A stretch of DNA of 64,000 bases from the NCBI GenBank assembly GCA_030998015.1, contig JARWMV010000025.1, positions 1 to 64,000 of the forward strand. The letters run 5' to 3'. The translations under genes were made by a program, and so were the position numbers. Of this stretch, positions 19,180-47,879 are shown one piece after another; position 1 is the first letter of the stretch, and each line of letters begins with the position of its first letter. Below the pieces are notes generated by a model. It saw only the letters and a program-made list of their open reading frames with translations, was not told the origin of the DNA and did not search any database. This stretch comes from Ceratorhiza oryzae-sativae. Taxonomy: Eukaryota > Basidiomycota > Agaricomycetes > Cantharellales > Ceratobasidiaceae.

Positions 19180-20308
19180 CCTGCTAAAGATATTTCGATC
19201 CATAGGCAACCCCAAAGCAAAACTCTACCATGGCTACCGCTGGAACTCATCGAGCTTATCGCCAAACATTTGTTCAATACCAGGCCACCATCTGCATCCA
19301 CAGGAGCTCAAGGTGACAACATTTGCTGTGTCAAACCGCCCTGGTCTAGCGTGCGAGGATTCATGTCTGCATCGGCCGATTTGCACAACATGGGCTTTCG
19401 CTACTGGGTAGTGGTATTGACTATTCGAGTACCTGTTGATTGGAGTCAAGCTTTGAAGCTTTCTCACTATATTCAGTGTGTATCATTAATCGAATTGGTT
19501 GATAAAATCCTAATGACTTTCGTCCTTGCAGTGAGATTCAATGCTTAGATGGCGCTTTCACGACCAAGCTGCAGGATGTTTTGTCTCAATTTCCTAGACT
19601 ATATGCCATCTCGGTCGACTTGCACGGCGACGTGAAATGCAATAGGAACAATCGGCTTGCTTATTGCAACGTCTTCACACAACTGCCGCGTTCATTACGT
19701 CGACTAGAGGTCAAATATGCTCATGGGCCGGACATAAACGTAATAGCAACCGTGAAACACTGCTGTCCAGATCTCGAGGAACTGCAATTTGGACGCTGCA
19801 CCATGTTCAATCAAACGCCAGCGTGTCGATTCTGGGAAAACTTTCCTTTTGATCACGACTCGTACGTATCTGATCAGGGAATAGAGCTTTACACAGTGAG
19901 GCGTTTGGGGTGTTTCCCATTTTCATGTTCACTCATAAAATTTTTCCGCGCAGCAATCATTGGGGCAAGAGTTGGCTCCGCTTCGCAAACTGAAGGCTCT
20001 TCGATTGGGGGTTTACCTCATGCCTTTGGGCGTTGTCTTAGGCCACCGAGCTTTTCATTCTCGAAACCTCGTGGCACCAAATGAAATCGCATGGCAAGAA
20101 TCTGTACAAATCATCGCGGAACATCAACCTGGGAATGCCGTGGGTCAACCTCCACAGGCCCGGGATCTCGTATCGCTCCTCCATCAACCATTCGAGGACG
20201 AGAGGAAATTTTCGGAGCGCACCTGTCAGTTCTGTTACGAACAGTGCTACGAATCTACCCGCCAAGCAGAGGCATCTGCGAATAAGATTTTGAAACAGCT
20301 CATACCAT
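19180..20308 (+). pseudogene. F-box-like/CxxC family gene, copy 1: 5' part, cut by hAT element
   Basis: Exons 19180-19475 (5' end unresolved), 19532-19895 (364 nt, the size seen in three other paralogues) and 19954-20308. The first holds an F-box-like helix LPLELIELIAKHLF and the GFMSASADLHNMGFRYW segment. The second holds PRSLRRLEV, HGPDIN, and FGRCTMFNQTPACRFW with FPFDHDSY. The third holds LGQELAPLRKL and a C-terminal CxxC pair, CQFC. F-box proteins usually recruit substrates to SCF ubiquitin ligases; whether this diverged family does so is unknown. The frame stops matching its paralogues exactly at the hAT insertion (after KQLIP). Transcripts would run into hAT sequence and stop at 20418. 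The missing 3' end is at 34292-34362 on the minus strand. Confidence 0.85.
20301..20308 (+). repeat. 8-bp target-site sequence CATACCAT, left flank of hAT copy 1
   Basis: Directly precedes CAGTGTTGTTAT. Its partner is not at the other end of this copy but at 34363-34370 (reverse complement), next to hAT copy 2. Confidence 0.9.
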
Positions 20309-23300
20309 CAGTGTTGTTATTGACTCCACCAACTCACGAACGTGTTCGGTCGGTCGGCCCCATTCGTTGGCTGACTCAGCCGTTCGTCCAGAGCGTTGGT
20401 CCGTTCGTGACCTTGTGATCCAGGTGAGTCATGTGACTGGATTTGTAAATTACCAAAACAAAAGTCGAGTAGAGCAACAGCAGAGTGTTCAATAAAAGGA
20501 GAAAAAATGACAAAAGGCTCAAAGACATGACAAAAGAGTGACAAATGTGCTCCCGAATGAGAAAACAGAGGGTAGAAAAGGGGGACTGGATCAGAACAAA
20601 AGCGCTACCCTCGATTCCCTACATCAATTACCTGTACTTGCCTGATTTAATCTTCTCAATTTGGCAACATGTCTCCAAGAAACTGGACTTGGTCCTTCTT
20701 CAATCAAGGCAAGAAGCGTTACTGGAGGAACAAGTCAAACTTCGAAGCCTACTGTTGAGGATGTGTTGCTTACTGGATGGCAAATTTGGAGGAAGCCGAC
20801 CAGCAAGATGTTGCTCAAGGAGGCAATATTGGATCTATGAGAAACAAGACTGAGCTCCATAGGGCGGGTGCGTAACTTTTTCAGGCCTGAGGTACACATA
20901 TATGCTGAATACAATTTAGTGTGCCAGATGGCAAAACCGTTGTGTGGGTGCCCTTCAACATTCTGTGCACATATTCAAGCATGTCCTCATGTTGCATTGG
21001 AGGCAAAGGAGTGCCTAGAGGCAGAGGATGCCACCAAGAATCAACATGCTGAACCAAACAGACCTGGCCCTGATTTTGGTCCCAATTTGGGTGGACTGCC
21101 ACTGCTGCCAGCAGTGGGATCATCTCAGCAGGCTACCACTGTTCCCTTGCCTGGCTTCAAAATTCATCCCCCATTTGACCTTACTCCCAATCAGCTGAAG
21201 GAGTTCCAATCTGATCTTCTCCATCTCTTCATTTCCAACAACTTTGCTCTTTATGCAGTCAAGTTGGTTCAGACTAACCTATTCTTTGATAAATGGCTCC
21301 CAGGTGCTCAGCTGCCAACTTGACAAGCGCTTGGGGGTTGTATTCTTAAGGAAGCAGTTCAGAAGTTGGAGGAGAATGTGGTTCAGGCAGTGCATGGAAA
21401 GACGGCTACAGGAATGAGCGATGTGTGGAAAGACAAGCAAAAGCATGCATTGTTGGCATATATGGCCAATGTAGAGGCTACAGTAGTTATTTTGATTTGA
21501 TTCAATAGTCTGCATTACCAAATAATTTCTGTCTAGGCTTATACTGTTGGGATCGAAGACATTTTAGCACTTCCCAAGACCACCAACAACCATCTCAAAA
21601 TTGTGAAAGAAGCAATCAAGCACTGCAAGGATGAGCTAGGAATGAAGATCATTGGATGGGTCTCTGATGCTGCAGGAGACTCACATGGTATGAGAATTTG
21701 CCTTGGTAAAGAATGCTGCAGTTACTTTTGTTTGACTGTTGGGCACACCCGGTAGGTTTTGGTTTATGGTTTCCAATTACAGGCTGAAGTTTGCAATCTG
21801 ACTCACTGATATTTTCAGATCCAACTTGTTGTTACCAACATTCTCAAACTCAAGAACAACCTGGTTGCTGCCAGCAACAATGTGCAGGAGATTGCCAAAT
21901 GGTTTATGATGCACAGCCAAGCACTTGCTCTTCTCCATGATGAGCAGGTGAAGACTCATGGTCGATCTTGCATGTATACCATTCCAAACATCACCTGTTG
22001 GACTAGCCATTATCTGACTGCACAAGGGCTCCTTGATGATTGTGGCCCCTTACAAGCAACTGTTGCCTTGCACTGTGATCAACTTCAGCAGATTGGATCA
22101 TGGGATCCAGAGTGTGCCAAGCGCATTCTTTCCACTGTTGAGGAACCAAGATTTTGGGAGCAGCTTGAAGAGTGAGTATTTGACTAGCATGAATTGCTAG
22201 CTTGCTACTTACTCTTTCATAAGACTTACCTCCTACCTTCAGCCTTTGGCCATTGCCTTGAATGTTGCTCAAGCTGCCAACACCTGTCTCCACCATATCC
22301 TCATCAGTCTTGGTTGCCTTTACCAGATTTTCAATGACCCAAATATTGATCCCAAGGTCCGAACTTGCGTCCTTTCAAGTCTTGAGCTTCAATGGTGAAA
22401 GGTGGACCAAGACGCATTCATATTGGCCATTTTTTTTAACCTGTACATCTGATGCTGCCTCTTCAGCCCAAACAGCCCTGATTTCTGTGCAAATGTGTTG
22501 TACACAGTAGTCCAGCATGTCTTTGAGCACATGTTCCAGAAACCACCAGAATCTGGCCTCTTCAAGGCATTTATGTCCTACTACACCTGGTCCAACAAGT
22601 TCTCTGCCAAGGCATAGCATCTGAAGGAGTATTCAGAGATGTATAAGAACAAGGTAGGTGCATTCAATAATATCTCATAGTCCCACTCTAAAATACAGAT
22701 ACAATCCCCATAGGGTAAGGACATCAATCTCAATGCTATTTGGTCAATGCTTCCCTGCCCCAGAACTGTGAACACAGGTTGCCATCAACTTGCTTGCCTC
22801 GCAAGGCTCATACTTTCGATTGTCACAAATTCTGCCAGCTGCAAGCAACTTTTTAGCTGCATAGGAAACATCCACACAAAGCTGCAAAATCAGCTTAACT
22901 TTGAGTGTGTGCACAACATTGCAACAGTTGCAATGGATCTCAAGGCTCAGCACCAGGCTGCTGGGCTTACTCAAAAGCAGACAAGGCAACATTTTGATGC
23001 ACCCCAGCCGCCTCCAGCTTTATGAGTGACTAATGAGACAGAGGCAGCAGATTCTGATTCTCTTCCTGATCCTCCTGCTGATTTAATTGATGGCAAACAT
23101 TTGTTCAACTTAACAGATGAGGAATCAGAAGACGGAGGGGAGTCAGGGGTGCAGAACTTGACAGCAGTTGCTACACAGCTCAATGAGGCACTCAATGATG
23201 ATGAGGATGGAGAAATCATAGAGGAGCTCCCCAAGCCTTCTGCAATAGCTTTTGATCAGCTGCACACACACCCTTGCTGGCTTTGGTTGTATTTCAGTAA

Positions 23301-23584
23301 GGCTCACATGATCCCACTCTCTGAAATGTTTAACTTCTCAGACACAGTTGAGGTTATTGAAGGGGGGCTTGGAGTGTTTTGGAACAATGGGATAGCTAAT
23401 TTGGCAAAGGAACATGATGTATGTAAGAGACTCACATCTATGTGCAAGTGAACAAGGCTGGTTTGTAGCAATTTGAATTTAATTTGAAATTAACTACCAA
23501 CCAACAAATGTTTTTGCCAACTGGTTGGCTCCACCAACTGACATCAGATAAACCTGGGGTCAGTGTGGGTCCATAACAACACTG
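20309..23584 (+). mobile_element. hAT DNA transposon, copy 1 (3276 bp)
   Basis: The left end CAGTGTTGTTATTGACTCC and the right end, read inward as CAGTGTTGTTATGGACCCA, form a short imperfect terminal inverted repeat of the hAT type. Inside is a decayed hAT transposase. The flanking octamers differ (CATACCAT and GGTGAGAC), unusual for a hAT element and explained by inversion with copy 2. Just inside the left end, TCACGAACG and CGTTCGTGA occur as inverted copies about 70 bp apart with further CGTTCGT/CGTTGG motifs between them, like subterminal transposase sites. Copy 2 (34371-47871) is nearly identical after removing its nested insertions. Confidence 0.9.
20669..23451 (+). pseudogene. hAT transposase, decayed (in hAT copy 1)
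   Basis: Segments in order: an N-terminal WSFFNQGKKRYWRNKSNF with Cys/His-rich context (BED-finger-like, about 20680-20800), a linker rich in Pro/Gly, FKIHPPFDLTPNQLKEFQ and FISNNFALYAVKLVQTN with FFDKWLPGAQLPT (about 21150-21322), GMSDVWKDKQKHALLAYM (about 21415), ILALPKTTNNHLKIVKEA and IGWVSDAAGDSHG (about 21560-21690), PNITCWTSHYLTAQGLLDD (about 21985), and the hAT C-terminal dimerisation motif LARLILSIVTNSASCKQLF followed by HTKLQNQLNFECVHNIATV (about 22800-22930). An acidic tail follows (23026-23451). In-frame stops at about 20755, 21320 and 22395 and others show it is not functional. A TGA after LPT stands where relatives have arginine. Confidence 0.85.
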
Positions 23585-23592
23585 GGTGAGAC
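23585..23592 (+). repeat. 8-bp target-site sequence GGTGAGAC, right flank of hAT copy 1
   Basis: Follows the right end of hAT copy 1. Its partner (reverse complement GTCTCACC) is at 47872-47879 beside copy 2. Confidence 0.9.
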
Positions 23593-23828
23593 AGAGCCCA
23601 TGGAGGAGCACAAGTGATACTGAAGCTGGATAAGTGCTGGCAGACTGAGGATACACATGTGACCCAAGTTTTTTTTAAATACATATTTAACAAGCTACAT
23701 GAGCACAAGGTCAAACTGCTTGGACTCCAGAAAGGGAAATGAGGCAAGAAGGGTCAGAGAAAAGGAGGAAAAAGGGTGGGGAGGTGACAAGCAAGAAAGA
23801 TCACAGCACCACAGCAACACAGGCAAGT

Positions 23829-25134
23829 TGTTATGGGTCACTAACATTTTTATATTATTTTAGTCTGCTCTGCCAACCTCAAGCAATGCCTCTGTAATTT
23901 TCTTGAAATTAAATGAACTTGAATGCATCTGAATTTGTACTATTTGTGTTCCATTAAATAGTACAAAATCTCCTTTTTCCAATGCATATTTTATTGTGAT
24001 TTTATCTTAAGAATTCAGAGAGATATAGAGGTTGCAATATTTCCTCTTATCAGGAGATATTGATTACAACATTGCACCACTCATATCTTAGCAACTGCTT
24101 ACACTATCAAAGCAGTCTTATGCTCCATTGATAGCTAATCTTCAGCAGTATCTGCTGCCCAAAGATTGTCACAATCCACCAGATCCTCATGCCAGAATAG
24201 CCCAAAGATCATTAGAATCTTACTGGACCATCAATCAAGATCTAATGACTCCAGTGAGTCAGGAGAGCCTTCCAAATTGATCCAGAAGCTTCTCTGACTC
24301 ACTTCATGACTCACTGAGATGTAGCCTCCATTCATTACATGTATATACTATGATAATATGATCTACAAGCCAATAGCAGGTCTCAGATGCATCAATGCCT
24401 TTGATCCACACCCTGTCTTTACTCTCTTATCCTATACTGGGCTAGGGTGTAACCCAAGTATAGCAGTACCCTCTTTTGATGATTGCACTGGCATGCATGT
24501 ATCTATTTGGCTCTGGAATCCCCTCCTCAGGGTATAAAAGAACCTCCTCTGAGGCCCTTCCAGACCACCTCCTCCTCTTACTCAACCCAGACTGGTTATT
24601 GGTTTCTGTTCTCTTTCTATTTCTCTTGTCTATGTGTGATTTCCTATATAACTAGTACTGAGGAATATAGTACCATATTAGTTACATACTGTCTGATTCA
24701 TTGTATCTTATATACTGAGATATATAAGGATACAATATTGCCTGATTGAGTGTGATATTAAGTACAAGCTATTAGAGGAAATCTAAGTACCTGTAGCTGA
24801 GGAAGTATACACATGAGGCAGCCCTCCATCTATCCAATAAGCTATTGCTTAAGTCTAGTATTAAGATTAGTATCAGTTAGTCCAAGCAACTAGGGCTGAA
24901 CTACATTTAAGATATCTAAGGGAACCTGACCATAGTAGTCTTGCTCTTTATACCTATAAATTAGTGAGTTTACACTGTGAAAGATTAAGACTACCTTGAG
25001 TGTTACTTGATTGCATTGCAACTACTTTGAGCCTTCTTACTCTAGTCTAAGAAGTACTGAGTACAATTAGTGTATACTAACATATCTACATTTGCTTAAG
25101 CTCTAGATATCCAAGTGTACCCTGACCTGTAACA
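23829..25134 (+). mobile_element. 1.3-kb LTR, copy 1 (TGTTA...TAACA), CpG-depleted
   Basis: Begins TGTTATGGGTCACTAACA and ends GACCTGTAACA, and aligns end to end with the copies at 26061-27362 and 41680-42983 in the opposite orientation. No open frame of note. No matching 5-bp duplication: CAAGT on the left and ATCAT on the right. CpG sites that are present in the other copies are nearly all TpG or CpA here. The right edge runs straight into an inverted fragment of the same LTR. Confidence 0.8.
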
Positions 25135-25213
25135 ATCATATTATCATAGTATATACATGTAATGAATGGAGGCTACATCTCAGTGAGTCATAAAGTGAGT
25201 CAGAGTGTCAGAG
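25135..25213 (-). repeat. Inverted fragment of the 1.3-kb LTR
   Basis: About 79 bp that read as the reverse complement of roughly 24282-24363 within the adjoining LTR (ATCATATTATCATAGTATAT onward). It abuts the end of LTR copy 1 without spacer, and shows that the right border is a rearrangement junction rather than a clean insertion site. Confidence 0.75.
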
Positions 25214-25689
25214 CTACAACCAGGAAGGATGACCCAAACATCTAAGAGGACAATGGGAGACCTATAGGTGACAATGCTGGAGGTCTAAGTCACAACATCA
25301 AGGGGGAGACATGCAACAAGGAGTAGGGGTGCAATAAGATGCAGGAATGTGGAAGTAGGTGCACTTGTCCTTAAGAGGACTGGGCAGAGACTATGGACTA
25401 TAAGTCACACAGGTAGTAGAAGGGATACAACAGGAGGTTGAGTTCTGAGGCTTAAGGCTCTCAGACTCTCCCTTTATATATTCATATGACAAGCTATATC
25501 AAATACACAAATGATACAAGATAACTATCATACAATGTAGAAATGGTGCCATGTAACAGAACATTCCAGAACATACAAATATGTCATAAACAACAGCAAG
25601 GTCACGTGATCATGTAAGTAATAATCTATGCATATATCTGATTAAACAGGACTTGTCCAAAAAGTAAGAAAATAGAAATATAAAATATA
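25214..25689. other. AT-rich spacer, possible old LTR-type sequence
   Basis: No open frame or known family seen. Contains a purine-rich tract AAGGGGGAGA near 25309, like a polypurine tract, and TTTATATATTC near 25472, like a TATA box. Both would fit the remains of another retroelement, but I found no second copy in the window. The N-terminal part of the RecQ-like gene that starts next is missing, so this stretch probably replaced it. Confidence 0.35.
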
Positions 25690-26060
25690 GAAAATTATAA
25701 TTAAATCTGCGTCATGGTCTAGGCCATGACAAAATGGCTCTACATCGTGAAGATGTGCACAAGACATTTGACAACAAGACCTTTTGAAAGGCCTTGATTG
25801 CCATCCGTATTGACAAGGCACATACAATCTCACTCTGGGGAGGTGACTTTTGGAAGGATTACCAAGGGCTAGGTTGGGTTCATGCTTGATTACCTAACAG
25901 GACACCAGTATCACTTTTCAGCACTACACTTTGGCCAAATGTCAAGCAGGATGCAATGTCTACACTTGGTTTCTCTTCAGACACATAAAAGTATATTGAC
26001 ATTAACATCAGGAATGGGCAAGGTAATGTTTTTATTGGGGCTTGTCCAATGCAGTATCTA

Positions 26061-27362
26061 TGTTACAGGTCAGGGTACACTTGAATATCTAGAGCTTAAG
26101 CAAATGTAGATATGTTAGTATACACTAATTGTACTCAATACTTCTTAGACTAGAGTAAGAAGGCTCAAAATAGTTGCAATGCAATCAAGTAACACTCAAG
26201 GTAGTCTTAATTGTTCACAGTGTAAACTGACTAATTTATAGGTATAAAGAGCAAGACTACTATGGTCAGGTTCCCTTAGATATCTTAAATGTAGTTCAGC
26301 CCTAGTTGCTTGGACTAACTGATACTAATCTTAATACTAGGCTTAAGCGATAGCTTTAGGATAGATGTGGGCTGCCTAATGCGTGTACTTCCTCAGCTAC
26401 AGGTACTTAGATTTCCTCTAATAGCTGGTACTTAATGTCATGCTTAATCAGGCAATATTGTATCCTTATATATCTCAGTATATAAGATACAATGTCTCAG
26501 ACAGTATATAACTAATATGATACTTTATTCCTCAGTACTAGTTATATAAGAAATCACACACAGACAAGAGAAATAGAAAGAGAAAAGAAACCAATAACCA
26601 GTCTGGGTTGAGTAGAGGGAGGTGGTCTGGAAGGGCCTCAGAGGAGGTCCTTTTATACCCTGAGGAGGGCATTCCAGAGCCAAATAGATACATGCATGCC
26701 AGTGCGATCATCAAAAGAGGGTACTGCTATACTTGGGGTACACCCTAGCCCAGTATAGGATAAAAGAGTAAAGACAGGGTGTGGATCGAAGGCATTGATG
26801 CATCTGGGACCTGCTATTGGCTTGTAGATCATATTATCATAGTATATACATGTAATGAATGGAGGCTACATCTCAGTGAGTCATAAAGTGAGTCAGAGAA
26901 GCTTCTGGATCAATTTGGGAAGCTCTCCTGACTCACTGGAGTCATTAGATCTTGATTGATGGTCCAGTAAGATTCTAATGATCTTCGGGCCATTCCGGCG
27001 CGAGGATCCGGTGGATCGCGACGATCTTCGGGCAGCAGATACCGCCGAAGATTGGCTATCGATAGAGCACAAGATCGCTCTGATAGCGTAAGCGGTTGCC
27101 GAGATATGAGCGGTGCGATGTTGTAATCAATATCTCCTGATAAAAGGAAATATCGCAACCTCTGTATCTCTCTGAGATCTTATTGTAAAAACTTAATAAA
27201 ATATGCGTTGGAGAGCGGGAAATTTGTACTATTTAATATAACGGAAAATAGTACAATTCAGAGCGCATACAAATTCGAGTATTTCACAATTTAATTACAG
27301 AGGCATCGCTTGAGGTTGGCAGAGCAGACTAAAATAATAGAAAATGTTAGTGATCCATAACA
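26061..27362 (-). mobile_element. Solo 1.3-kb LTR, copy 2, TSD ATCTA
   Basis: Reads TGTTACAGGTCAGGG...GATCCATAACA on the plus strand, reverse to copy 1. Flanked by ATCTA on both sides (26056-26060 and 27363-27367), so this is a clean single-LTR insertion left after LTR-LTR recombination. Removing it and one ATCTA rejoins the RecQ-like frame (MQYL then ALSFKDILQHF). A CpG-rich block is kept near 26994-27118. Confidence 0.92.
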
Positions 27363-27493
27363 ATCTAGCATTGTCCTTCAAAGACATCTTACAACATTTT
27401 GACCCCAATGCATCTGATCCTTATAAAATTCCCTCCACCATTATCTATATCAACAATGTAAACAATGTTACATTTGGTGTCATTCTCTGTATG

Positions 27494-27779
27494 CTGGGAA
27501 CATCCAAATTTTTTGGATGGACAAAATAGATGTTTTGACCATTTACTACAGTCTGTCTAGCTTGATTTTGTGAATATTCTCTCCCAATCACTCAAAAATT
27601 GGACAAAATGCATGTTTTCAATATGTCTACATCAAGGTCATAAAAATATAGAATACACTTGTTTGCATGCAGTACTGCATCTCTTAAGTATCTAGCAGCT
27701 GAAATATCATCACAGATGGTCAAAATGGACATAATGTGCATTTTTTTTTAACTTGTACAAAAAAATTGGATGTCTGGGG
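27494..27779. mobile_element. Putative MITE inside the RecQ-like pseudogene (about 286 bp)
   Basis: The left end CTGGGAACATCCAAATTTTTT and the right end, read inward as CCCCAGACATCCAATTTTTTT, form an imperfect terminal inverted repeat with core ACATCCAA-TTTTTT. There is no coding capacity and it is AT-rich. It lies between two neighbouring helicase segments (IPSTIIYINNV... and YGWLHPLL...) that should be close together. An ATG triplet borders both ends and could be a small target duplication. Family unknown. Confidence 0.55.
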
Positions 27780-28850
27780 CATGAAGAGATTGCCTTATAC
27801 GGCTGGCTTCACCCATTGCTCTGAGGCAAAGCATTGGTCATGCCAGTGCATGCGTGGATGACACCGAAGTGCCGCAGCGAGGCAATGGCAAAATTTGCGG
27901 CAGGGGAAGTTAGAGTAATATTTGCTACAGAGGCAGCAGGAATCGTGAGTTCCAGAGTACGTGTTTAAACCATCATGTCTTAACTAGGCATTTTGGGATG
28001 CGATATTTCCAACGTTAAGCGTGTGATCCAATTCGGGGTTTGTGGGTCGATAGGTGAATACCATTATCAATATGCATTATGTACATGATGACTAGAAGGA
28101 TGTTTTTTGGGGGGTGCATATATGCAGCGAATTGAGCGCGCTTAGCGCGGATCTGACGGTACAGGCGAAGGGTGGCTCATTTGCGAGAAGTGGGTGCCCA
28201 CTTGTAACCAGGACAACGTTGCAGACGGCGAGGAAAAAGCCTCAAACAGCAAGAAAGGGAAAACATCTGTAGGCGAAGGAAAACCCGAGACCCAGAACAG
28301 CGGTCACAACAGCAAAACCGAACTGAAATGCGATCGACTGGTGCAAAAGCTAGTTACCGAGACAAAATGTCGTCGAGAATTTCTCAACCGAGTGTATAAC
28401 AACCCAATCAGAGGTCAGCCAATCAAGTTGCGTGCGGGATTGATTCATTTATCCTATTGAATTCGTTGTACTACAGAAATACCGGCTCCTCCCCATGAAT
28501 GCTGCGATCTGTGGGACCCAAACTCTGCTGCTCGACTTGTGCACCACAAGTTTCCTCCTAAAGTGGGGTAGCCAAGGGCTGCTCGCGTCTCCGGCCAATC
28601 GAATCCTAGCATGCTCGCGTGCCTTCGTACTTGGCGAAAATCGGCTTTCCCTTCTGCTTTCGGTCGCTGTTCCCTGTTTGGCGCATCTGCTCTGATTACC
28701 GACGAGGAACTCGAAAGAATCTCTCGTTGCGCGCCACTTCGCTCCGTTTCTCACCTCCGAACCTATCTCGTCAAGTGGCGCCAAGTCGATTCGCAGCTTG
28801 AGCCTATGTGGGAAGCACTTAAACTTGCGGTTTTGCGCTTTCTATTGATT

Positions 28851-29978
28851 CTGTGGAAGAGAAAAAGCCTAGACCAGCCCCAAAAAATCGCACTGAGCCA
28901 ACTGCTCGGTCGTCCGCCGTTCAGATTAAGTCAAACTCAGCTAAGTCGACACTCGCCCATATAAGCGTCCACGTCTCGACCATCCGGGTGACCCTTTCCG
29001 ACTTCCAGCAGGACTGCCCCCAACACCTCACACAAATCCTGCGCCTCTGTTGATGTCTATTGACGCCCGATCCAACTTCCGAGCTCCTGCACGTCCGGTT
29101 GGACGAACGATCATGCCATCCCAACACCCGCACCTCCCTCCACCACCAGCTCCGTTGGCCTCATCTTCCGCCGTTCGTCAATCGCACCGAGCTCCAGTGG
29201 CTGTACGTATACACCACCCGTCTCCGACCAGGCTGCTCGATTTTACATACTTTGGCATCCCACGTGCGCCTACCTTCGCTCCTCGTATACCAGCACCGCA
29301 CCAGCCCCATAGCCAGCTGAAGCCTCCGCATACACGAACTCTTAACCAAAATACTCACTACCCGAGGGGCCCCCTCATCCATTCCTCAGTTAAGCCACCT
29401 TTTTTTGGTTCTTAACTTATGTATTACTATAAATCGTACTTTTGTATGACACGTGAATGTATTTTCTATTTATTACAATTTATGCGACGTGCGACCGAGC
29501 GATCGCAACGCGCTTTCATGGGTTTCCCATGGTTGGCGCCTACTCCTCCATGGTCGGCGCTTTGTCCATCTCCGCAAAACCTCTAAGTTGAGCCTGTGCT
29601 CGGAGTTTTCAATACAGACGGTTTGGGAGTAGTGAGGAAGGGGGGGTTTGACGTTGGGGGGGTGTGGGGCATATCAAATCCACGCGACCCGACCGAGCGG
29701 ATCTCAAGCCGGATGTGGAAGAGACTACGGTAGGGCATGATTTGGAAGGTCCAGGTCTAGATGTCAAGTTTTCTTTCATCAACCCGGGTTTCTTTGACAA
29801 GTGACTGGGTCGCTAGCCTAGCGTCCTAGGGCTTTATGGGAAAGCACCAATTGTATGGTTGGTAGCACCCTTCTCGGATAGACCACACCAGCACGTGTGT
29901 TTTTCTACGATTTGTGGAAATAAATACATAAACATGAGTCACCCTTTCACCAAGCATGAAAAGGGTAACAGCGAAGAT
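28851..29978. other. Spacer, no gene recognised
   Basis: Follows the RecQ-like remnant. Open frames on both strands in 29000-29420 are Pro/His-rich and overlap each other, which suggests base composition rather than coding. No repeat ends seen. Confidence 0.4.
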
Positions 29979-34362: not shown

Positions 34363-34370
34363 ATGGTATG
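34363..34370 (-). repeat. 8-bp target-site sequence ATGGTATG (= CATACCAT on minus), flank of hAT copy 2
   Basis: Reverse complement of the left flank of hAT copy 1 (20301-20308). It marks the other side of the original insertion in F-box-like copy 1. Confidence 0.9.
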
Positions 34371-34503
34371 CAGTGTTGTTATGGACCCACACTGACCCTG
34401 GGTTTATCTGATGTCAGTTGGTGGAGCCAACCAGTTGGCAAAAACATTTGTTGGTTGGTAGTTAATTTCAAATTAAATTCAAATCGCTACAAGCCAGCCT
34501 TGT

Positions 34504-36904: not shown

Positions 36905-37280
36905 TGTCAACAACAACAAGTCAGGTGACAAGAAAAATAGTGAGAAAGGAAAAGAACTTGTATTTGACGAGAGGTCAAGTTCTTGAGGAGCCCTCTGCAA
37001 ACTTGACCCAGTTTATATACATAGTACAAGCCACATCATAACAAACAAATCCATACAGTGAGTCACAACTGATAAGAGATAGAAGCAGAAGAAGCAACTG
37101 CAGAACTGTGGAATTTCACATTGGAGTTGAAATACATCTTGGTTATTGGCCTGGAACATCCCCTGAATCACATGACACAGATATACCATTAAAGGCAAGT
37201 ATGTTTTGAAGATGATCTCATAAAATGTAATAAATCAAGAAAATATTATAAAGTGGATATATGTGTGTCAGTTTGTGACA
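36905..37280 (-). repeat. Chromovirus 3' LTR
   Basis: TGTCAACAACAAC...GTTTGTGACA on the plus strand; 376 bp, same length as the 5' LTR. TATATAA (plus TTATATA near 37013) and the TCAAGAACTTGACCT complement are kept. Differences from the 5' LTR include several CG versus CA/TG sites. Confidence 0.93.
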
Positions 37281-37292
37281 CTTCCCCCCTTC
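37281..37292 (-). promoter_or_regulatory. Polypurine tract next to 3' LTR
   Basis: On the element strand GAAGGGGGGAAG directly precedes the LTR start TGTCACAAAC. This is the expected plus-strand priming site for reverse transcription. Confidence 0.85.
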
Positions 37293-37299
37293 AAGGCAT

Positions 37300-40200
37300 G
37301 GGGGTCATGGGGTGCCTTTGGATGTGACTTGACATAGTCAGCAATGAGTTCTGGTGCATTTACCAGGTTATTGTAAGTTAACCATTGTCGCTTGTCATAG
37401 CCAAGCCATTTGACATAGTATTTGAAGATGCTAGACCTTTTGTTGTATCATGACTTTATGATCTGTTCCACTTCAAATTCTTCTTCCCCTTCAGGAGTTA
37501 CCACAGGTGGTGGTGGGGGAACCTGACATCCATAGGGATCATCTTTATGTTTGGTCAGGAGCAAGACATGAAATACAGGGTGTATTTTCATGGTTACTGG
37601 CAGGTCCAGTTTGAAGGCATGGGTGCCATGTTGTGCTACCACTTTGAATGGTCCAACTCTCTTGTGGGCCAATTTCCTGGAGGCCTGTTGTGTGTGTATG
37701 TTCTTGGTGTCAAGCCAGACTTTGTCTCCCACCTTGATGGCTTCTGGGGTCCAATGCTTCTGATCATAGTATTCTTTGGTCCTCTGGTTTGATAATTCTA
37801 GAGCAGCCTTGAGTTTGTCATGGCCCTTTTGAAGCCATTCTGTGTGATTGTCTGCTAAGGGAAATTCTTGTCCCTCCTTGTCCCCAACTGCCAACCTTGG
37901 ATGGAAACCATAGTTTGCAAAAAATGGTGATTTGCCAGTTGAGGCATTGACACCATTGTTGTAGGCAAATTCAGCCAAGGGTAAGAGTGAGACCCAGTCG
38001 TCCTGCCAATCTGATATGTAGTGTCTCAGGTACCCTTCTACTACTTGGTTAGCCCTTTCTGACTGGCCATCTGTTTGGGGGTGATATGCTGTGGAGTAGG
38101 ACAGTTTTATATTCAGCCATTTGTACAAGTGCCTTAAGAATTTGGATGCAAAGTTGGGGCCTTGGTCTGAAATGGTTTTTCACAGTAACCCATGAAGTTT
38201 CCATACATAGGTTAGGAACAGGTTTGCACAATCCATGGCACTGGCCTCTGACTGACATGGGATAAAGTGGACCATTTTTGTCAGGCGGTCAACAACTGTA
38301 AATATAGCATCAAACCCTTCTGACAGGGGTAGCCCAGTGATCAGATCATAGGTGATTTCCTCCCAAGGTTTTTCCAGTGCTGGTATTGGGTTTAGGAGCC
38401 CTGGGGGAACCTGGTTGCTGTGCTTGTTCCTAATACAGGATTTGCAATGTGTGACGTATTTGTTGACCAATTTTTTCATTGATGACCATGTATATTTGCA
38501 GTTTAGCAATTCATATGTTCTGAACTGTCCTGGGTGTCCTGCAGCTGGGTTGTCATGACGGCTTTCAATGATCAGCTTGTGAAGTTCCTTGTTATTTGGG
38601 ACATAGATTCGGCCCTTGTATCATAAAAGTCCTTTGTCCCATTCCCAATTTTTGACCTTTTTGTTGTTGTCTAGGGCTTTTAGCACTTTTGAAAGGTGCT
38701 CGTCCCCTGGGATAGTGTCCCTAATGCGTTGTTCCAAGTCATGGTCTGGTGTGATTGCTTGTAGCCACAGTGATTTTAGTTCCAAAAATTGGTTTTGTGC
38801 AAGCAGAGCTTGGCTCTCACCCCCCTCTTTAGGGATGTGCCTTGACAGCTTAGAAAGTATGTCTGCCTGGCTGTTCTTTGCCCCTTTGATGTACAGAATC
38901 TTGAATTCAAATCTGGACAGGAACTTGTGCCATTGTGTGACTTGGCTGTTCAGTGGCTGATTTGTCTTCCAGTATTCCAGATTTGTGTGATTGCAAACAA
39001 CGTTTACTGGGTGTTCAGCCCCCTCTAGCAAATGATGCCAGTGTTTGAGGGCCTTTATAATTGCCAACATTTCTTTGTTGTAGATATCATAATTTCTTTC
39101 TGCTGGGACCATTGCCTTGGAATAGTAGGAGATTGGGTGAAGCATTCCATCTTCTCCATATTGCAATAATACAGCACCTGTGGCATAGCCTGAGGCATCT
39201 GTTTCCAAAATAAATGGTTTGCTGGGTTCTGGCTGAATTAGGAGGGGGGCTTCTTTCAATTTCTGCTTCAACAGGTTCCATGCCTGATCCCTTTCTTCTG
39301 TCCATTCCCACTTTACATCCTTCTTGACAAGTTCATAGAGACATTTTGTGATTTTCGAGAAGTCTTTTATGAAGTGCCTTAACCAGTTTGCAAACCCCAG
39401 CCCTTCCAGGACTTTGGTTGGGTTGGTAGGGGTTGGCCATTCAATGGCTTTTTCAACCTGGCTGGGTCCACTTTAATTGCCTGGGGAGTCATTACTATTC
39501 CCAGGTAATCAACTTCAGTGACATCAAAAACACATTTCTCCAGGGCACAGTATAGGCCAGCTTTTTGAAGATGGTGCAAGACTTCTTTGACATGTTCATC
39601 ATGTTCTTCTTGGTTCTTGGAGAACACTAAGATGTTGTCCATATAGATTACCACATAAATGCCCTCAATGTCTTGGAATTCTTCCTGGATCATGGCCATG
39701 AAGGTCCCTGGTGCGTTCTTTTGGCTGAATTGCATGACTAAGGGCTTGTACAGCCCATATTTGGTCTTAAAAGCAGCCTTCCATTTGTCTCCTTCCCAAA
39801 TTTGTATAAGGTTGAAACCCCACTTTAGATCAAACTTGGTGAATATTTTTGCCCCACACAGGGTTTCCACAATATCATTGATGAGTGGGAGTGGGTACAC
39901 ATTGGAGACAGTCATCTCATTTAGCCACTGGTAGTTGATGCACATGTGTAGCTTTCCATTCTTTTTCTTGACAAATATAACAGGGGATGCCATTGGTGAC
40001 CTGGAGGGTCTAATATGTCCTGCTTTCAATTGGCAATCCAAGGTCTTGCGCAACTCTGCATCTTCCTTGATATGCACACTATATATGGGGCCATGCCTTG
40101 GCTTTGCATCTGGTTTTAGGTCTATTTCCATGTCCCACTTCCTGTGGGGTGGTAGTGGCTGGACATTGTCCTCTTCAGCAAATATTTTCCGAAATTCCTT

Positions 40201-40773
40201 GTATTTTGCTGGAAGCAAGTCTAGGGACTCCAACTGAAGCTCCCTAGGTTCATTTGCCCATATGTATAGGGGCTTTGTAATGCAATGCTTCAGGCATATT
40301 GGCAAGTTGAATCTTGTGTCCTTTCCATCCCAATCAATGTCAGGATTATGGAATTTGAGCCAAGACATGCCCAGGACTAGATCATTCTTGCCAACATTCA
40401 CAACATAAGCACTGAGGATTTCTTGGTGCTCCTGAATGCACAACTCAAAGGTGCAATAGTGGGTCACAGACCCTGAGTTGATCTCCCTTCCATTGATTAC
40501 TTGTAGTTTTTTTGGTGTTTTTAGGGGGATGGTAGGAATATGATATTGTTTAACAAGGTCCTCATGTATAAATACTGATGTGGCCCCTGAATCAATCATG
40601 GCCCATCTGTTGAATTTTTTCATATTATATGCAGACTTGTGTTCAGGGGTTGTGCACAGTGGGAATGCATGAAAGAAAAACTGAAGTTGTGATTGGTTTC
40701 CTAGTGACATACATTCCATTTCCATATTTTTATTTTCATTCTGCACATTTTGTAACATAGCACCCAAGACCAC
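37300..40773 (-). pseudogene. Chromovirus pol: protease, RT, RNase H, integrase, chromodomain (broken)
   Basis: In order: aspartic protease WAMIDSGATSVF (40600s); RT with YSVHIKEDAELRKTLD, SPVIFVKKKNGKLHMCINY, FTKFDLKWGFN and YMDNILVFSK; a frameshift near 39380; RNase H FILETDASGYATGAVLL to ADILSKL (39271-38621); integrase with CKSCIRNK, YDLITGLPLSEGF and SDQGPNFA, and HPQTDGQSERANQ; GPFKVVAQHGTHAFKLDLP; and a chromodomain SSIFKYYVKWLGYDKRQW ending at about 37300. The RT catalytic box is YMDN instead of YxDD, and stops lie after KLHGLL (38180) and before the chromodomain (37445). It cannot move itself; chromodomains normally steer insertion to marked chromatin. Confidence 0.93.
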
Positions 40774-41331
40774 CCCCCTGGCATGGTTTGAGCTTATTCT
40801 TTTACCAACTCATTGTTGGTTGTTTCTAAGGTAGGGGCCAGGCAGATGCCGCAGGGCTTATCTAAGCGCCATCAAAACTGCATGACATGCATCACGTTTT
40901 CCTATGTAAAGCAATCGTAGAGAGCATATAAAAACAAGGTTAAACCTATTTTTTGTCAAAGCGCATATATAATGCATATATGTGGTGTACATGTGCCAGA
41001 AAACTAAGTGGTCAAGGACGAGAATCGACAATAACATGTAGGATCTTGTCACTTGGATGACTGATAAGATCACGTGCATTGGTCATGCGATTGTCAACCC
41101 TGTGATTTATGACCTGCTGCTTTCTTTGTACTGTTTTGACAACCTGCAGGAGATGCCTCATCTCAAGAATCACTGGCGTGTTTATAATCTTGGAATTTAT
41201 GCCCAGCCTCGCCACTCAGTAAGTACAACTCTGGTGTATTCCAAGCGCATATATCTAAGGTAATTTAGGTCGAAAATGCACAAGCAGCACGCCGCCACCA
41301 ATCTGCAACCCCAGCTTCCTCAGGCTCTGAC

Positions 41332-43157
41332 TTGGGAACGTCCACTCCATTTTTCAACCCCACTTTTACTCTTCCTGTACCACACTTTAGTCTATACCAG
41401 CCTCCGCTTCGGGCAATCATTGAACAAACCATACTGTTGCTGGAAGAACACATCAACCCCAAAAAGAAATCAGGGGGAACTCAGACCATGCTTCAGCTTG
41501 CACCTCATGCTCTTGAGGACCTGAAAAGCATCCTTGAGCTCTTCTGTACCTATGTCAAAAAACCCAATATATCCTGGACAGAAGCATTGGTCAACATTGC
41601 TCTGGCCAAAGATCAGGGTGAGCCACATGCCCAAACCTTACGCTCATGGGCTCGCGCAGTAATTATTGACCCGGATTTTTGTTACAGGTCAGGGTACACT
41701 TGAATATCTAGAGCTTAAGCAAATGTAGATATGTTAGTATACACTAATTGTACTCAATACTTCTTAGACTAGAGTAAGAAGGCTCAAAATAGTTGCAATG
41801 CAATCAAGTAACACTCAAGGTAGTCTTAATTGTTCACAGTGTAAACTGACTAATTTATAGGTATAAAGAGCAAGACTACTATGGTCAGGTTCCCTTAGAT
41901 ATCTTAAATGTAGTTCAGCCCTAGTTGCTTGGACTAACTGATACTAATCTTAATACTAGGCTTAAGCGATAGCTTTTAGGATAGATAGTGGGCTGCCTAA
42001 TGCGTGTACTTCCTCAGCTACAGGTACTTAGATTTCCTCTAATAGCTGGTACTTAATGTCACGCTTAATCAGGCAATATTGTATCCTTATATATCTCTGT
42101 ATATAAGATACAATGTCTCAGACAGTATATAACTAATATGGTACTTTATTCCTCAGTACTAGTTATATAAGAAATCACACACAGACAAGAGAAATAGAAA
42201 GAGAAAAGAAACCAATAACCAGTCTGGGTTGAGTAGAGGGAGGTGGTCTGGAAGGGCCTCAGAGGAGGTCCTTTTATACCCTGAGGAGGGCATTCCAGAG
42301 CCAAATAGATACATGCATGCCAGTGCAATCATCAAAAGAGGGTACTGCTATACTTGGGGTACACCCTAGCCCAGTATAGGATAAAAGAGTAAAGACAGGG
42401 TGTGGATCGAAGGCATTGATGCATCTGGGACCTGCTGTTGGCTTGTAGATCATATTATCATAGTATATACATGTAATGAATGGAGGCTACATCTCAGTGA
42501 GTCATAAAGTGAGTCAGAGAAGCTTCTGGATCAATTTGGGAAGCTCTCCTGACTCACTGGAGTCATTAGATCTTGATTGATGGTCCAGTAAGATTCTAAT
42601 GATCTTCGGGCCATTCCGGCGCGAGGATCCGGTGGATCGCGACGATCTTCGGGCAGCAGATACCGCTGAAGATTGGCTATCGATAGAGCACAAGATCGCT
42701 TTGATAGCGTAAGCGGTTGCCGAGATATGAGCGGTGCGATGTTGTAATCAATATCTCCTGATAAGAGGAAATATCGCAACCTCTGTATCTCTCTGAGATC
42801 TTATCGTAAAAACTTAATAAAATATGCGTTGGAGAGCGGGAAATTTGTACTATTTAATGAAACAGAAAATGGTACAATTCAGAGCGCATACAAATTCGAG
42901 TATTTCACAATTTAATTACAGAGGCATCGCTTGAGGTTGGCTGAGCAGACTAAAATAATAGAAAATGTTAGTGATCCATAACATTCGGTTTCCTTTTGCT
43001 GCCAAAATTCTTGCCCAAGCTCAATCCAATTGAACAATGTTGGGGCGCAGCGAAACAAGAGTTTTGTAACCTACCTCAATCGACAGGATCGAAACAACTC
43101 GAGAAGTTTGTGAAGGTGGCGCTGGACAGCATATCATTGGATGATATTAGAAAGTAA
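41332..43157 (+). pseudogene. Tc1-like (DDE) transposase, middle missing
   Basis: The N-terminal part (41332-41679) ends ALRSWARAVIIDPDF-type sequence: SWTEALVNIALAKDQGEPHA then LRSWARAVII, the pattern of DDE transposases in Agaricomycetes. The C-terminal end (42984-43157) has LPKFLPKLNPIEQCWGAAKQ, the last part of the DDE domain with the catalytic acidic residue, then DSISLDDIRK and TAA. The central part with the first two catalytic residues is absent; in its place lies a 1.3-kb LTR without a target duplication. Non-functional. Confidence 0.75.
41680..42983 (-). mobile_element. 1.3-kb LTR, copy 3, no matching TSD
   Basis: TGTTACAGGTCAGGG...GATCCATAACA, nearly identical to copy 2 (26061-27362) including the CpG-rich block. 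Flanks are ATTTT (left) and TTCGG (right), so no duplication. Part of the host transposase gene is missing at this point. The simplest reading is recombination between LTRs of two separate insertions, which deleted the stretch between them. Confidence 0.88.
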
Positions 43158-43704
43158 GCAACAAGGATAAGCTGAAAGGATGCATAATACTCACCAGAGA
43201 GTATGCGAGTAGATACTGCACTCGATCAAGGCAAGTTGTTGATGGCTATGCAAAGGGATTGGACAGCCAATTGTCAATTTGGGCCTTAAGGTTATACCAT
43301 GGACATTGTGCATATCTGCAGAATATAATGGAGGAGGTAGCAGCAGATATGAAAGCAAAAGGGTTGTTAGTTTAGATTCAATTATATTGAGTTTACTCAC
43401 TTCAAAGCCTTCAAGCTTGATTTAACTTAATCCAGGCAATTACATGTTTGGCACCAAAAATAATCACGTGAGTCACAGCTTCCCACGACATCATCACCTT
43501 GCTGTTGATACTTGTCTTTGCCCACTTCATTTTCCGGCACATAGACACAATGTATATTCATTATATATGTGCTTTGACAAAAAATAGGTTTAACCTCATT
43601 TTTATACGCTCTCTACGATTGTTTTACATAGGAAAACATGATGCATGTCACGCAGTTTTGATGGCGCTTAGATAAGCCCTGCGGCATCTGCCTGGCCCCT
43701 ACCT

Positions 43705-44907
43705 TACATCCTCCACAACTGCTTTGTAGCCTGACATCTTGGCTGAAGGGCACTTGGCAGCAATATGATCATGTCCTCCACAGCTATAGCAGGTGTTTGT
43801 CCCTTTCCCTTTTCCTGCACTATCCAGATCCATTGCATCTGAATCCTTTGCTTCGGGGGCCACTGGTGGATGATTGTCCTTCTTTATGTCCTTGAAGGAT
43901 TCTTGTACATTGGAATTGCTACTGTTGTAGCAAACAGTAGGGACAGTGAAGCCCTTGGCATTGGGCCCAATGGCCACAATCTGGCCCTTGACTGCCCTGC
44001 CATCCTTGATCTTGTATATCTGCTCCCCACTCTTGAATTTCTCCTTTTGGGGGTTGCTTTGGGGAGTAGCTGTTGGCCTACTGGACAAGGCATTGTTGCT
44101 GCTGGACTTGTTACCCCCATGAGATGTCCTTTTGCTACCAAAAAATATGAGGTGGCAGTTGATTTCTAAGGCTTGCTGAGTGAGCTGGGCAAAGGTTTTG
44201 GTGTGGGGGTCATAGTTTTGGGCCACCATGCTGTCTGTTACATCCGAAGACAGACCATCATAAAACTGGTCCCACATGGCCACATTGTTGTAGTTGAGTC
44301 CTGTGGAATATAAATTGAACAGGGTGAGGTAATCTTGGACTGTCTTGGTTTGTTTCAGTTTCCACCACTTGTCATGGTTATTCTCAGTGTGGTTCAAATC
44401 CCCATAATGGGTAGTAAATTCTGGCCAAAAGAGGTTGGCATTGTGAAGCCATGGGATCGCAGTTCTGGGGTTTAAGATTTTGAATTCTTCATATGAGTTA
44501 ACCCATTTGGCAGCAGACCCTTCAAGGTAGGATGTAATAAAGGCAACCACCTGGTCAGCAGAGTGCCCACTCATGTTTGTATTGATATAGCACGCACATG
44601 CAATTCTGAACAAAATGGTGTCTTCATGCTTTGTGCCATCAAATTTTTGTGGAGCAGCCATCTTAACTTTTGCTGTTGACCCACTGGAAGGAGCCATAGC
44701 TGCTGGTTGCAGCAGGGCCATGCTGGAGGAAGGTTGTACTGGGGTGATTCCAGTGCCCCCCAAGGAGGTGTTGATTTGTGTCTCAATGTGCATAATGGTT
44801 GTTTGGAGTATTGCTAGCATGCCAACCAGATTGTTTACATTGGTGGCCAGTCCTCCCATGTCAGCATCTATCTTTGCTTGGTTTGTTGTAAGCTTTGCTT
44901 TGAGCAA
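43705..44907 (-). CDS. Chromovirus gag with CCHC zinc knuckle
   Basis: About 400 codons open. The N-terminal helical part ends in a Met/Pro-rich linker. The capsid-like core contains VKMAAPQKFDGTKHEDTILF, VVAFITSYLEGSAAKWVNSY, and FWPEFTTHYGDLNHTENN with KWWKLKQTKTVQDYLTLF, typical of retrotransposon gag. The C-terminal zinc knuckle is CYSCGGHDHIAAKC (CX2CX4HX4C). Frames upstream of 44907 (ANMSDEDKVIYMLWSMDEL) look like gag N-terminus cut by stops near 44965, so the first ATG may not be the original. The 3' end is displaced by the Tc1-like element at 43704. Confidence 0.85.
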
Positions 44908-45058
44908 GTCTGTGTAGGTTTTATTGTTGTGTTCAACATCTCCAATATCATTTTGGAGATTGTTGGTTCACTCTCATAATTCATCCATGGACCAGAGCAT
45001 ATAGATTACTTTGTCTTCATCAGACATATTTGCCCAAGCAGGGGCAGGGGCTGGTGAT

Positions 45059-45432
45059 TGTTGATGACAACAAGTCAGGCAACAAGGAAAAGAGTAAGAA
45101 AAAGAGAAGAACTTGTATTTGACAAGAGGTCAAGTTCTTGAGGAGCCCTCTGCAAACTTGACCTGGTTTATATACATAGTACAAGCCACATCATAACAAA
45201 CAAGTCCATACAGTGAGTCATGACTGACAAGAGATAGAAGCAGTAGAAGCAACTGCGGAACTGTGGAATTTCACATCAGAGTTGAAATACATCTTGGTTG
45301 TCGGTCCGGAACATCCCCTGAATCACATGACACAGATATACCATAAAAGGCAAGTATGTTTGAAGCTGGTCTCATAAAATGTAGTAAATCAAGAAAATAT
45401 TAGAGTGGATATATGCATGTCAGTTTGTGACA
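45059..45432 (-). mobile_element. Solo LTR of the chromovirus family inside the element's leader, TSD GTGAT
   Basis: 374 bp, TGTTGATGACAACAAG...GTTTGTGACA, flanked by GTGAT at 45054-45058 and 45433-45437. Its own duplication shows that it is a separate later insertion and not the 5' LTR of the surrounding element. Confidence 0.92.
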
Positions 45433-45437
45433 GTGAT

Positions 45438-46713
45438 GCCATTTTTCAGGAAGGATTCAGGTAAATTCTAAAGGCAATGGAGACAATACGGAAGTACAGG
45501 GAATTGAGAATTATTTTGGTAATAGAGGATTTTGGTTCCCTGCACAAGTCTATAAATTTTGAAGTTTCCAATTCCCTCAAACCTTAACCACATGTTGTCC
45601 AAGTCCCAACTTTTGGTGTCTTGGCAGCAATATGGACACTCCACCCTCTTCAATTTAGTTTGATCCTGAAGGAGTGCTTCCTTGGGGAGGAGCAATTTGG
45701 GCTGCTGGAAGGGGTGCTTCTTCCTGAATTGGCAAGCTTGTGCCACTTAGAAAGGTAGGGTGAGGAAGGTCTGACAGCATTGAGAAGACAGGGAAGGTGT
45801 ACTTGTGGGGTGCAATTGTTTCTCAGATTATAGCTTCTAGTCTGAGATGGTCTTGGAGGAGGGATAGGTAGTCCTCCTGGTGTTCACACAAATGCTCAGT
45901 TAAGTATGTGCAGCAGGCCTTGGCTTTGTGAAGTTTTTCACAAGTTTCTTTGTACTTATTTTGGTAGTAACAATACCTGTCTTGGAAGTTTTCAATGGTA
46001 TTTAACAGGTGACAAAGGAGTTGTTGGCCAAGGTTCTCCAGCTTATAGCTGGTTGTGGGGGATGGTGTAGTAGTAGAGGAATTTGTCCTTCTTAGGACAA
46101 TAAGGGCAGTGTGCTGGGAAGGTGGCTCTGTTTGCCTGATGGCAGATTTTGCACTCAGGGGCACCTGGCTCAGTAACAAAGGCTTGTTGGGCACGTCCAA
46201 CTCTCTGGGGGCAGACTTTGACAATTACTACTCAGTTAAAATCAATGTGCCCAGCCTCTTCAAGGATACTTTCAACCAAATTGAGGGTGAAGCAGTGGAT
46301 AGACAGGTGTCCAAACCACCCACACAAATGGCAGCACTGGTCTTCCATAAAAGGTTGTGCCACTTGAGGGCTGTGTGTTCTGTCAGAGATGTATTTGAGC
46401 AAGAGCAAGATAAAAGGAAAAAATAGACCCTTTCCCAAGTCTATTGGAATAGGAAGGTGACCTCTGTTGCTCAACTACTTAAGGGCAATGAGTGACCCCA
46501 CCTCTTGTCAACGAAAGAGATTAGAGAACCAAAGCTTGTTACAATGTGTGAGGGACCTGGCTATGCAAGGTTTCACAGAGGCACGTATAGGGCAACAATG
46601 TCTTGTGGCTGTGGATAGGTGGAGTGGGATTGGGGAAGGCAATGGGAAGTTATCTTGAGACAATGCCAACGGTGTTCCAGATGTATCCCAGGCGACACTG
46701 AGACTTACAATTG
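45438..46713 (-). other. Chromovirus leader with zinc-finger-like frames
   Basis: Between primer-binding site and gag, on the element strand. A frame at 46474-46232 contains CHLCGWFGHLSIHC (CX2CX4HX4C). Next comes a frame at 46224-45823 with a coiled helical stretch, and in a shifted frame ECKICHQANRATFPAHCPYC. A frame at 45746-45468 contains VECPYCCQDTKSWDLDNMW. Two or three cysteine clusters in one 1.3-kb leader suggest an additional gene or an extended gag that has lost its frame. I do not recognise the family. Confidence 0.55.
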
Positions 46714-46728
46714 TCAAGAACTTGACCT
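46714..46728 (-). promoter_or_regulatory. Primer-binding site, complementary to the element's own LTR (self-priming type)
   Basis: On the element strand AGGTCAAGTTCTTGA starts 2 nt after the 5' LTR. It is the exact reverse complement of TCAAGAACTTGACCT inside the LTR (46812-46798). In Tf1-like elements the 5' end of the RNA folds back on such a site and is cleaved to prime reverse transcription. I see no need for a tRNA match. Confidence 0.8.
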
Positions 46729-46730
46729 GA

Positions 46731-47106
46731 TGTCAACGACAACAAGTCAGGCAACAAGAAAAATAGTGAGAAAGGAAAAGAACTTGTATTCAATGAGAGG
46801 TCAAGTTCTTGAGGAGCCCTCTGCAAACTTGACCCAGTTTATATACATAGTACAAGCCACATCATAACAAACAAATCTGTACAGTGAGTCATGACTGATA
46901 AGAGATAGAAGCAGAAGAAGTGACTGTGGAACTGCAGAATTTCACATTGGAGTTGAAATACATCTTGGTTATTGGCCTGGAACATCCCCTGAATCACATG
47001 ACACAGATATACCATAAAAGGCAAGTATGTTTTGAAGATGATCTCATAAAATGTAATAAATCAAGAAAATATTATAAAGTGGATATATGCATGTCAGTTC
47101 GTGACA
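46731..47106 (-). repeat. Chromovirus 5' LTR with TATA box and self-priming sequence
   Basis: 376 bp. On the element strand TATATAAA lies 33 nt upstream of TCAAGAACTTGACCT, so transcription should start at about that sequence, as self-priming requires. Confidence 0.93.
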
Positions 47107-47111
47107 TTGGT

Positions 47112-47490
47112 GTGTTGATTCTTGGTGGCATCCTCTGCCTCTAGGCACTCCTTTGCCTCCAATGCAACATGAGGACATGCCCAAATATGTGCATGGAATG
47201 TTGAAGGGTGCCCACACAACGGTTTTGCCATCTGGCATGCTAAATTGTATTCAGCATATATGCATACCTCAGGCCCAAAAAAGTTATGCACCCACCCTAT
47301 GGAGCTCAGTCTTGTTTCTCATAGATCCAATATCGCCTCCTTGAGCAACATCTTGCTGGTCGGCTTCCTCCAAATTTGCCATCCAGTAAGCAACACATCC
47401 TTGACAGTAGGCTTTGAAGTTTGACTTGTTCCTCTGGTAACACTTCTTGCCTTGATTGAAGAAGGACCAAGTCCAGTTTCTTGGAGACAT
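47112..47490 (-). pseudogene. hAT transposase N-terminal part (copy 2)
   Basis: Starts MSPRNWTWSFFNQGKKCYQR and continues with CQGCVAYWMANLEEADQQDV and then, in another frame, VCIYAEYNLACQMAKPLCG to EDATKNQH. It keeps a glutamine codon where copy 1 has a stop (YCQGC against YC*GC), so copy 1 is more damaged here. It ends at the chromovirus target site. Confidence 0.85.
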
Positions 47491-47871
47491 GTTGCCAAAT
47501 TGAGAAGATTAAATCAGGCAAGTACAGGTAATCGATGTAGGGAATCGAGGGTAGCACTTTCGTACTGATCCAGTCCCCCTTTTCTACCCTCTGTTTTCTC
47601 ATTCAGGAGCACATTCGTCACTCTTTCGTCATATTTTTCAGGCGTTTCGTCATGTCTTTGAGCCTTTTGTCATTTTTTCTCCTTTTATTGAACACTCTGC
47701 TGTTGCTCTACTCGACTTTTGTTTTGGTAATTTACAAATCCAGTCACATGACTCACCTGGATCACAAGGTCACGAACGGACCAACGCTCTGGACGAACGG
47801 CTGAGTCAGCCAACGAATGGGGCCGACCGACCGAACACGTTCGTGAGTTGCTGGAGTCAATAACAACACTG

Positions 47872-47879
47872 GTCTCACC
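47872..47879 (-). repeat. 8-bp target-site sequence GTCTCACC (= GGTGAGAC on minus), flank of hAT copy 2
   Basis: Partner of 23585-23592 beside hAT copy 1. It marks the second original insertion, in a non-coding site. Confidence 0.9.

Follow-up and report, generated by a model that had tools for sequence, protein, structure and literature searches.

The window analysed here, the first 64,000 nucleotides of contig JARWMV010000025.1 (C25, 203,009 bp) of the basidiomycete Ceratorhiza oryzae-sativae, contains two homologous copies of a hAT transposon in opposite orientation, one at each breakpoint of a segment of 10,770 bp (23593–34362) which appears to be inverted. This 10.8-kb inversion very probably arose by crossing-over between the inverted hAT copies, with gene conversion of a tract of about 2.3 kb. 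Copy 1 (20309–23584, plus strand) measures 3276 bp and is apparently chimeric, consisting of a 5' arm of the type inserted at one breakpoint (site A), a converted tract, and a 3' arm of the type inserted at the other (site B). Copy 2 (34371–47871) lies on the minus strand. Rather than forming a single block, as the preliminary description of the window had it, this copy is split by a long terminal repeat (LTR) retrotransposon of 10.2 kb, which that description did not mention, into a 3' part (34371–36904, including one copy of the retrotransposon target TTGGT at 36900–36904) and a 5' part (47107–47871, starting with the other TTGGT copy at 47107–47111). All comparisons were made on assembled contigs (genome of 48.8 Mb, 253 contigs).

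All four octamers that serve as target-site duplications directly abut the ends of the hAT copies. The target of site A, CATACCAT, is found on the plus strand at 20301–20308, left of copy 1, and as the reverse complement on the minus strand at 34363–34370; the target of site B, GGTGAGAC, is found on the plus strand at 23585–23592 and as the reverse complement on the minus strand at 47872–47879. The octamers at 34363–34370 and 23585–23592 would have been moved to their present places by the inversion, and the one at 47872–47879 would be in its original place. The probability that both octamers match at the given termini by chance is about 2e-10. These swapped pairs had been correctly recognized in the preliminary description, which also held that each octamer occurs exactly twice; this is true of the termini, but in the whole window, counting both strands, CATACCAT occurs six times and GGTGAGAC three times (chance expectation about two each, by simple arithmetic). 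Its delimitation of the inverted segment as 23585–34370 likewise applies with the octamers included, the inverted DNA without them being 23593–34362. To call the inversion proven by the octamers alone was too strong, since the same octamers could result from hybrid-element transposition or from an assembly misjoin. A composite transposon was ruled out because the outer octamers differ. Intact 8-bp duplications were present in all three hAT family members examined outside C25 (on contigs C23, C243, and C95).

A genome search with copy 1 retrieved the same hAT element on contig C23 (154689–166249), split at the same place. It has GTCTCACC on both sides, which is the unbroken octamer pair of site B. 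To its left lies the reverse complement of window positions 23595–25556 (98.2% over 1,962 bp), so that the left end of the inverted segment is in opposite orientation on C23, and to its right the sequence of the window from 47872 onward. Among the 30 matches listed for the 236 bp beside copy 1, full or near-full ones were located only on C25 itself and on C23 beside the B element. With its unbroken GGTGAGAC pair and the uninverted flank beside the B element, site B is evidently uninverted in C23, and the order in the window would be the derived one. Positions 129175–200172 of C23 parallel positions 1–81743 of C25, with about 96–99% in colinear blocks, in the manner of overlapping contig ends. 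Because ASF1 occurs on C23 and C25 only, whereas ARPC2, used as a yardstick, has a single place in the genome, on one contig, the two contigs are probably two retained haplotypes.

Copy 1, copy 2, and the C23 element, the latter representing the B allele, were compared in a three-way alignment; gap columns and the columns of the retrotransposon target (element positions 739–743) were excluded from counts by site, and the target columns also from the count by event. At element positions 1–790, the C23 element is matched by copy 2 at 23 sites and by copy 1 at 9, and at positions 3056–3276 by copy 1 at 10 sites and by copy 2 at 2 (Fisher p 0.0017 for the exchange of arm markers by site). Both copies thus appear to be chimeric, with outer arms matching C23 as predicted by crossing-over. 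Between the arms, copies 1 and 2 show no substitution in 2,259 ungapped columns, 121 of which differ from C23, and all 44 substitution sites which distinguish the two copies are in the outer arms. When the 180 variable sites were permuted 20,000 times, the longest run obtained was 41, as against the 121 consecutive variable sites observed. Two small insertions/deletions between the copies remain inside the tract, both being losses in copy 2. The tract, element positions 791–3055, corresponds to 21099–23363 on the plus strand in copy 1 and to 34592–36853 on the minus strand in copy 2 (the latter coordinates worked out by hand), and the last B-type marker is within 50 bp of the retrotransposon. 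The exchange point, placed by the preliminary description somewhere inside the elements, would lie in this tract or at its edge; the alignment of the hAT copies, which had been proposed for locating it, reveals the exchange of markers and bounds it to element positions 791–3055.

The tract differs from the C23 element by 5.4%, as compared to 4.8% between the A-type arms and the C23 element (p 0.55) and 2.6% between the B-type arms and the C23 element (p 0.0003). Since the distance of the tract fits the A-type value better, conversion probably proceeded from A to B with A as the donor, assuming even rates along the element. Had the two copies stayed apart since the split of the haplotypes, about 58 substitutions would be expected in the tract at the rate observed between the B elements of C25 and C23, and none is seen, so homogenization looks recent compared with that split. 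CpG sites left in the tract number 14 in 2,265 bp of copy 1; this CpG loss would slow the appearance of new changes and therefore loosens the bound on the age of homogenization.

At site A, the insertion appears to have interrupted a gene close to its 3' end, which the inversion would then have carried away. The 5' part of the gene (19363–20308, plus strand) matches residues 1–281 of protein P0001 from Ceratobasidium sp. AG-Ba in three pieces, the last of which runs 5 bases into the hAT element, to 20313; the 3' end (34295–34362, minus strand) is within a match to residues 275–302 at 34378–34295. When the junction of 20308 with 34362 is restored, P0001 residues 160–302 align unbroken across it, whereas in the window they fall into two pieces, 19954–20313 on the plus and 34378–34295 on the minus strand. 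Likewise, a paralogue at about 30.0–31.1 kb aligns with the restored order over 1,143 bp (61%), extending beyond the junction by 68 bp, whereas its alignment with the present order stops one base into the hAT element. It is this continuity of paralogue and protein which points to a gene split by the A insertion. A search with site A yielded three matches, namely C25 itself, 198 bp on C23, and a paralogue (68%), none of those outside C25 spanning the site. C23 lacks 17798–20308, copy 1, and, at high identity, 29732–34362 (40 of 889 candidates having been scored in one of the searches); the missing sequences 17798–20308 and 29732–34362 form one block only in the restored order. Two of the five homologous proteins found for the site A gene are from Ceratobasidium. 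No Pfam match was obtained for ten open frames located in the left flank, in copy 1, or in the inverted segment, and the split gene is therefore without a known domain there; P0001 itself has no Pfam domain.

Five members of a gene family related to P0001 form an array in the window (19363–20313, 31030–29988, 48623–49588, 50239–51264, and 61561–60554), four members of which point the same way in the restored order. Because even the best match to P0001 in positions 145001–156000 of C23 (E 0.32) is not significant, the copy number of P0001-related genes seems to differ between the haplotypes.

In the proposed course of events, two copies of one hAT element would have inserted at a distance of 10.8 kb from each other and in opposite orientation, one at site A, in the 3' end of a gene (target CATACCAT), and the other at site B (target GGTGAGAC); the B copy would also have taken up the 10.2-kb retrotransposon. 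Ectopic homologous recombination within one chromosome, with a crossover between the copies inside the 2.3-kb stretch of their 3' part, would have turned 23593–34362 round and split both octamer pairs; in the same repair, or before it, gene conversion would have made this stretch identical, with A probably converting B. Two hAT insertions followed by crossing-over between the inverted copies had also been put forward in the preliminary description, and find support in the order at site B in C23, the chimeric arms, and the continuity at site A. The crossover came with, or after, the conversion of about 2.3 kb, and we infer that conversion and crossover were one event rather than two.

Several points weigh against this reconstruction. 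If adjacent changes are counted as one event, the exchange of arm markers is weaker (17:8 vs 2:6, p 0.047), and with three sequences the pattern of changes on the branches depends on a rough clock. That C23 is an allele rather than a duplicated segment is likewise something we infer, the ARPC2 yardstick being on one contig only. C23 shows diverged matches in reverse orientation to 25732–29731, interrupted by a 1.3-kb repeat (147738–149052) which differs in place and orientation from the copies in the window and is taken as a separate insertion. The uninverted order, which the preliminary description had suggested looking for, was recovered for site B in C23 with its unbroken octamer pair and uninverted flank; for site A it is supported by the continuity of paralogue and P0001, but no insertion flanked by an intact pair of octamers was found in the genome, C23 lacking that region. 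Moreover, conversion and crossing-over may be two events, an older conversion having homogenized the middle of the elements and a later, separate crossover having inverted the segment. This variant, which is not exclusive of crossing-over between the hAT copies, is possible, if clearly the less probable course: the signatures of conversion and crossover are separable and the element alignment gives no order, but a single repair event needs fewer steps, and the tract is wholly within the longest uninterrupted homology (element positions 744–3276), as one event would have it.

An assembly artefact, in which the chromosome is uninverted and the wrong arms were joined within the near-identical hAT middles, would mimic part of the evidence, since an error inside an identical 2.3-kb tract would give the same contig and the same swapped octamers, and the tract offers 2,259 columns with no substitution and only two small insertions/deletions for it to occur in. 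Such a misjoin, although a serious rival, is quite improbable. Contigs reach 3.2 Mb, and the 185 kb inspected on C25 and C23 contain no N, which suggests that the assembly was built from long reads, to which a tract of 2.3 kb would be a short obstacle; moreover, the homogenized tract would still need explaining. A collapsed mixture of the A and B elements of C25 should differ from C23 by about 3.7%, but the tract differs by 5.4% (p 7e-5, even rates assumed), which is too far for a collapsed-repeat consensus, so that this reading was rejected. Even less credible is aberrant transposition, i.e., hybrid-element insertion or reversed-ends transposition, in which transposase would have acted on ends of two copies, placed them at a new target, and inverted the DNA between them. 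Rearrangements by alternative transposition are reported in maize, one report naming Ac, and hybrid-element insertion yields swapped target duplications like those of ectopic exchange according to excerpts of PMC2775673; the same excerpts, however, describe two identical copies as its outcome, whereas the copies in the window differ at 44 sites in their outer arms, and the retrotransposon is present only in copy 2, where it is shared with C23, copy 1 having a single target copy. Hybrid-element transposition was rejected because the copies are not identical and the retrotransposon is in one only. Reversed-ends transposition would, by our own derivation, leave the new target alone shared, not both, and a mosaic tract is not expected from aberrant transposition. 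Apart from these alternatives, it seems unlikely that the segment is a still-invertible cassette which flips between nuclei or cells, with the hAT middles kept near-identical by recurrent conversion; if it were, each flip would move the end of the site A gene, and conversion tracts would end near the retrotransposon.

Crossing-over between inverted transposon copies is a known mechanism of the Galileo type, and the present case is a new, unusually complete fungal record of it. Galileo inversions in Drosophila are described, in excerpts of PMC2775673, as involving opposite orientation, exchanged target duplications, and chimeric copies, and the window resembles them in that DNA-transposon copies lie inverted at the two breakpoints, their target-site duplications are exchanged, and both are chimeric. 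Uninverted breakpoints are known for Galileo from the same excerpts; here the uninverted order is seen at site B in C23, whereas at site A it is suggested by the continuity of paralogue and protein. The excerpts place Galileo in the P superfamily, with 7-bp targets, and its exchange within 141 bp, whereas the elements of the window are hATs with 8-bp targets and a homogenized tract of about 2.3 kb; unlike what is described for Galileo, the present case is from a fungus, the segment measures 10.8 kb, and one site is also present uninverted, together with its element, elsewhere in that genome. PMC12510652, as excerpted, treats inversions and ectopic recombination at the mating-type loci of fungi but does not describe this pattern. 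Within the limited literature and terms searched, titles and openings of abstracts did not announce a fungal hAT inversion of this kind. Since the octamers, the mosaic elements, the split gene, and a homologue that is still uninverted all occur in one assembly, the case would provide a clean record of a transposon-caused inversion. It would also supply a tract length for fungal gene conversion associated with ectopic crossing-over, and would illustrate how a transposon can split a gene whose end is then relocated by an inversion to the other strand, at a distance of 14 kb. The known mechanism is thereby extended, not changed.

The element Ac belongs to the hAT superfamily, and inversions formed by alternative transposition in maize are reportedly bounded by element ends. 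Both features, hAT elements and an inversion bounded by element ends, are shared by the window. Maize inversions are made by transposase at a new target, and by our own reasoning chimeric copies with a conversion tract would not be predicted from this. The maize inversions by alternative transposition are described in PMC8225341 and PMC3744419, as excerpted.

The retrotransposon in copy 2 (36905–47106, minus strand) is of the Ty3 type, with LTRs at 36905–37280 and 46731–47106, a 5-bp target duplication (TTGGT), and matches to gag, protease, reverse transcriptase, RNase H, and integrase zinc-binding sequences. Copy 1 contains no trace of it, the TTGGT target being present once, not twice. The C23 hAT element carries the same insertion at the same site, which indicates that the B element probably already contained the retrotransposon when the haplotypes split. 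Within the retrotransposon of C25, an insert of about 2.9 kb (40827–43706) with 204-bp inverted ends (90%) contains a nested 1.3-kb repeat (41680–42984); the C23 retrotransposon is without this insert, with a copy of the 1.3-kb repeat elsewhere (about 159900–161211 of C23). An extra LTR copy inside the C25 retrotransposon (45060–45432) is absent at that place in C23. A solo LTR of the same family occurs on C25 at 12321–12696, with an empty site on C23 at about 141501–141505.

As to the hAT family, the first 12 bases of copy 1 agree at both ends as terminal inverted repeats; the C243 element has these 12 bases at its two ends as well, and the C95 element at least 8 of them. The hAT C-terminal dimerization domain PF05699 was detected above the cut-off in the C243 relative and with an E value of 2.1e-4 in the C23 copy. 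The two window copies are absent from the 26 PF05699 matches, three open frames of copy 1 had no Pfam match, and both copies look decayed. The length difference of 21 bp concerns a stretch present in the C243 and C95 relatives and is therefore a loss in copy 1, which by itself does not group copy 2 with C23. CG, TG, or CA contexts account for 148 of the 180 sites that vary between the three aligned elements (background 1,268 of 3,297 columns), as expected from the decay of methylated CpG.

The 1.3-kb repeat has three copies in the window (23829–25134, 26061–27362, and the one at 41680–42984), the first two of which are in the inverted segment, and a 71-bp piece recurs at its edge. A 304-bp repeat at 27485–27788 has at least 30 further copies in the genome, with about 83–97% identity.

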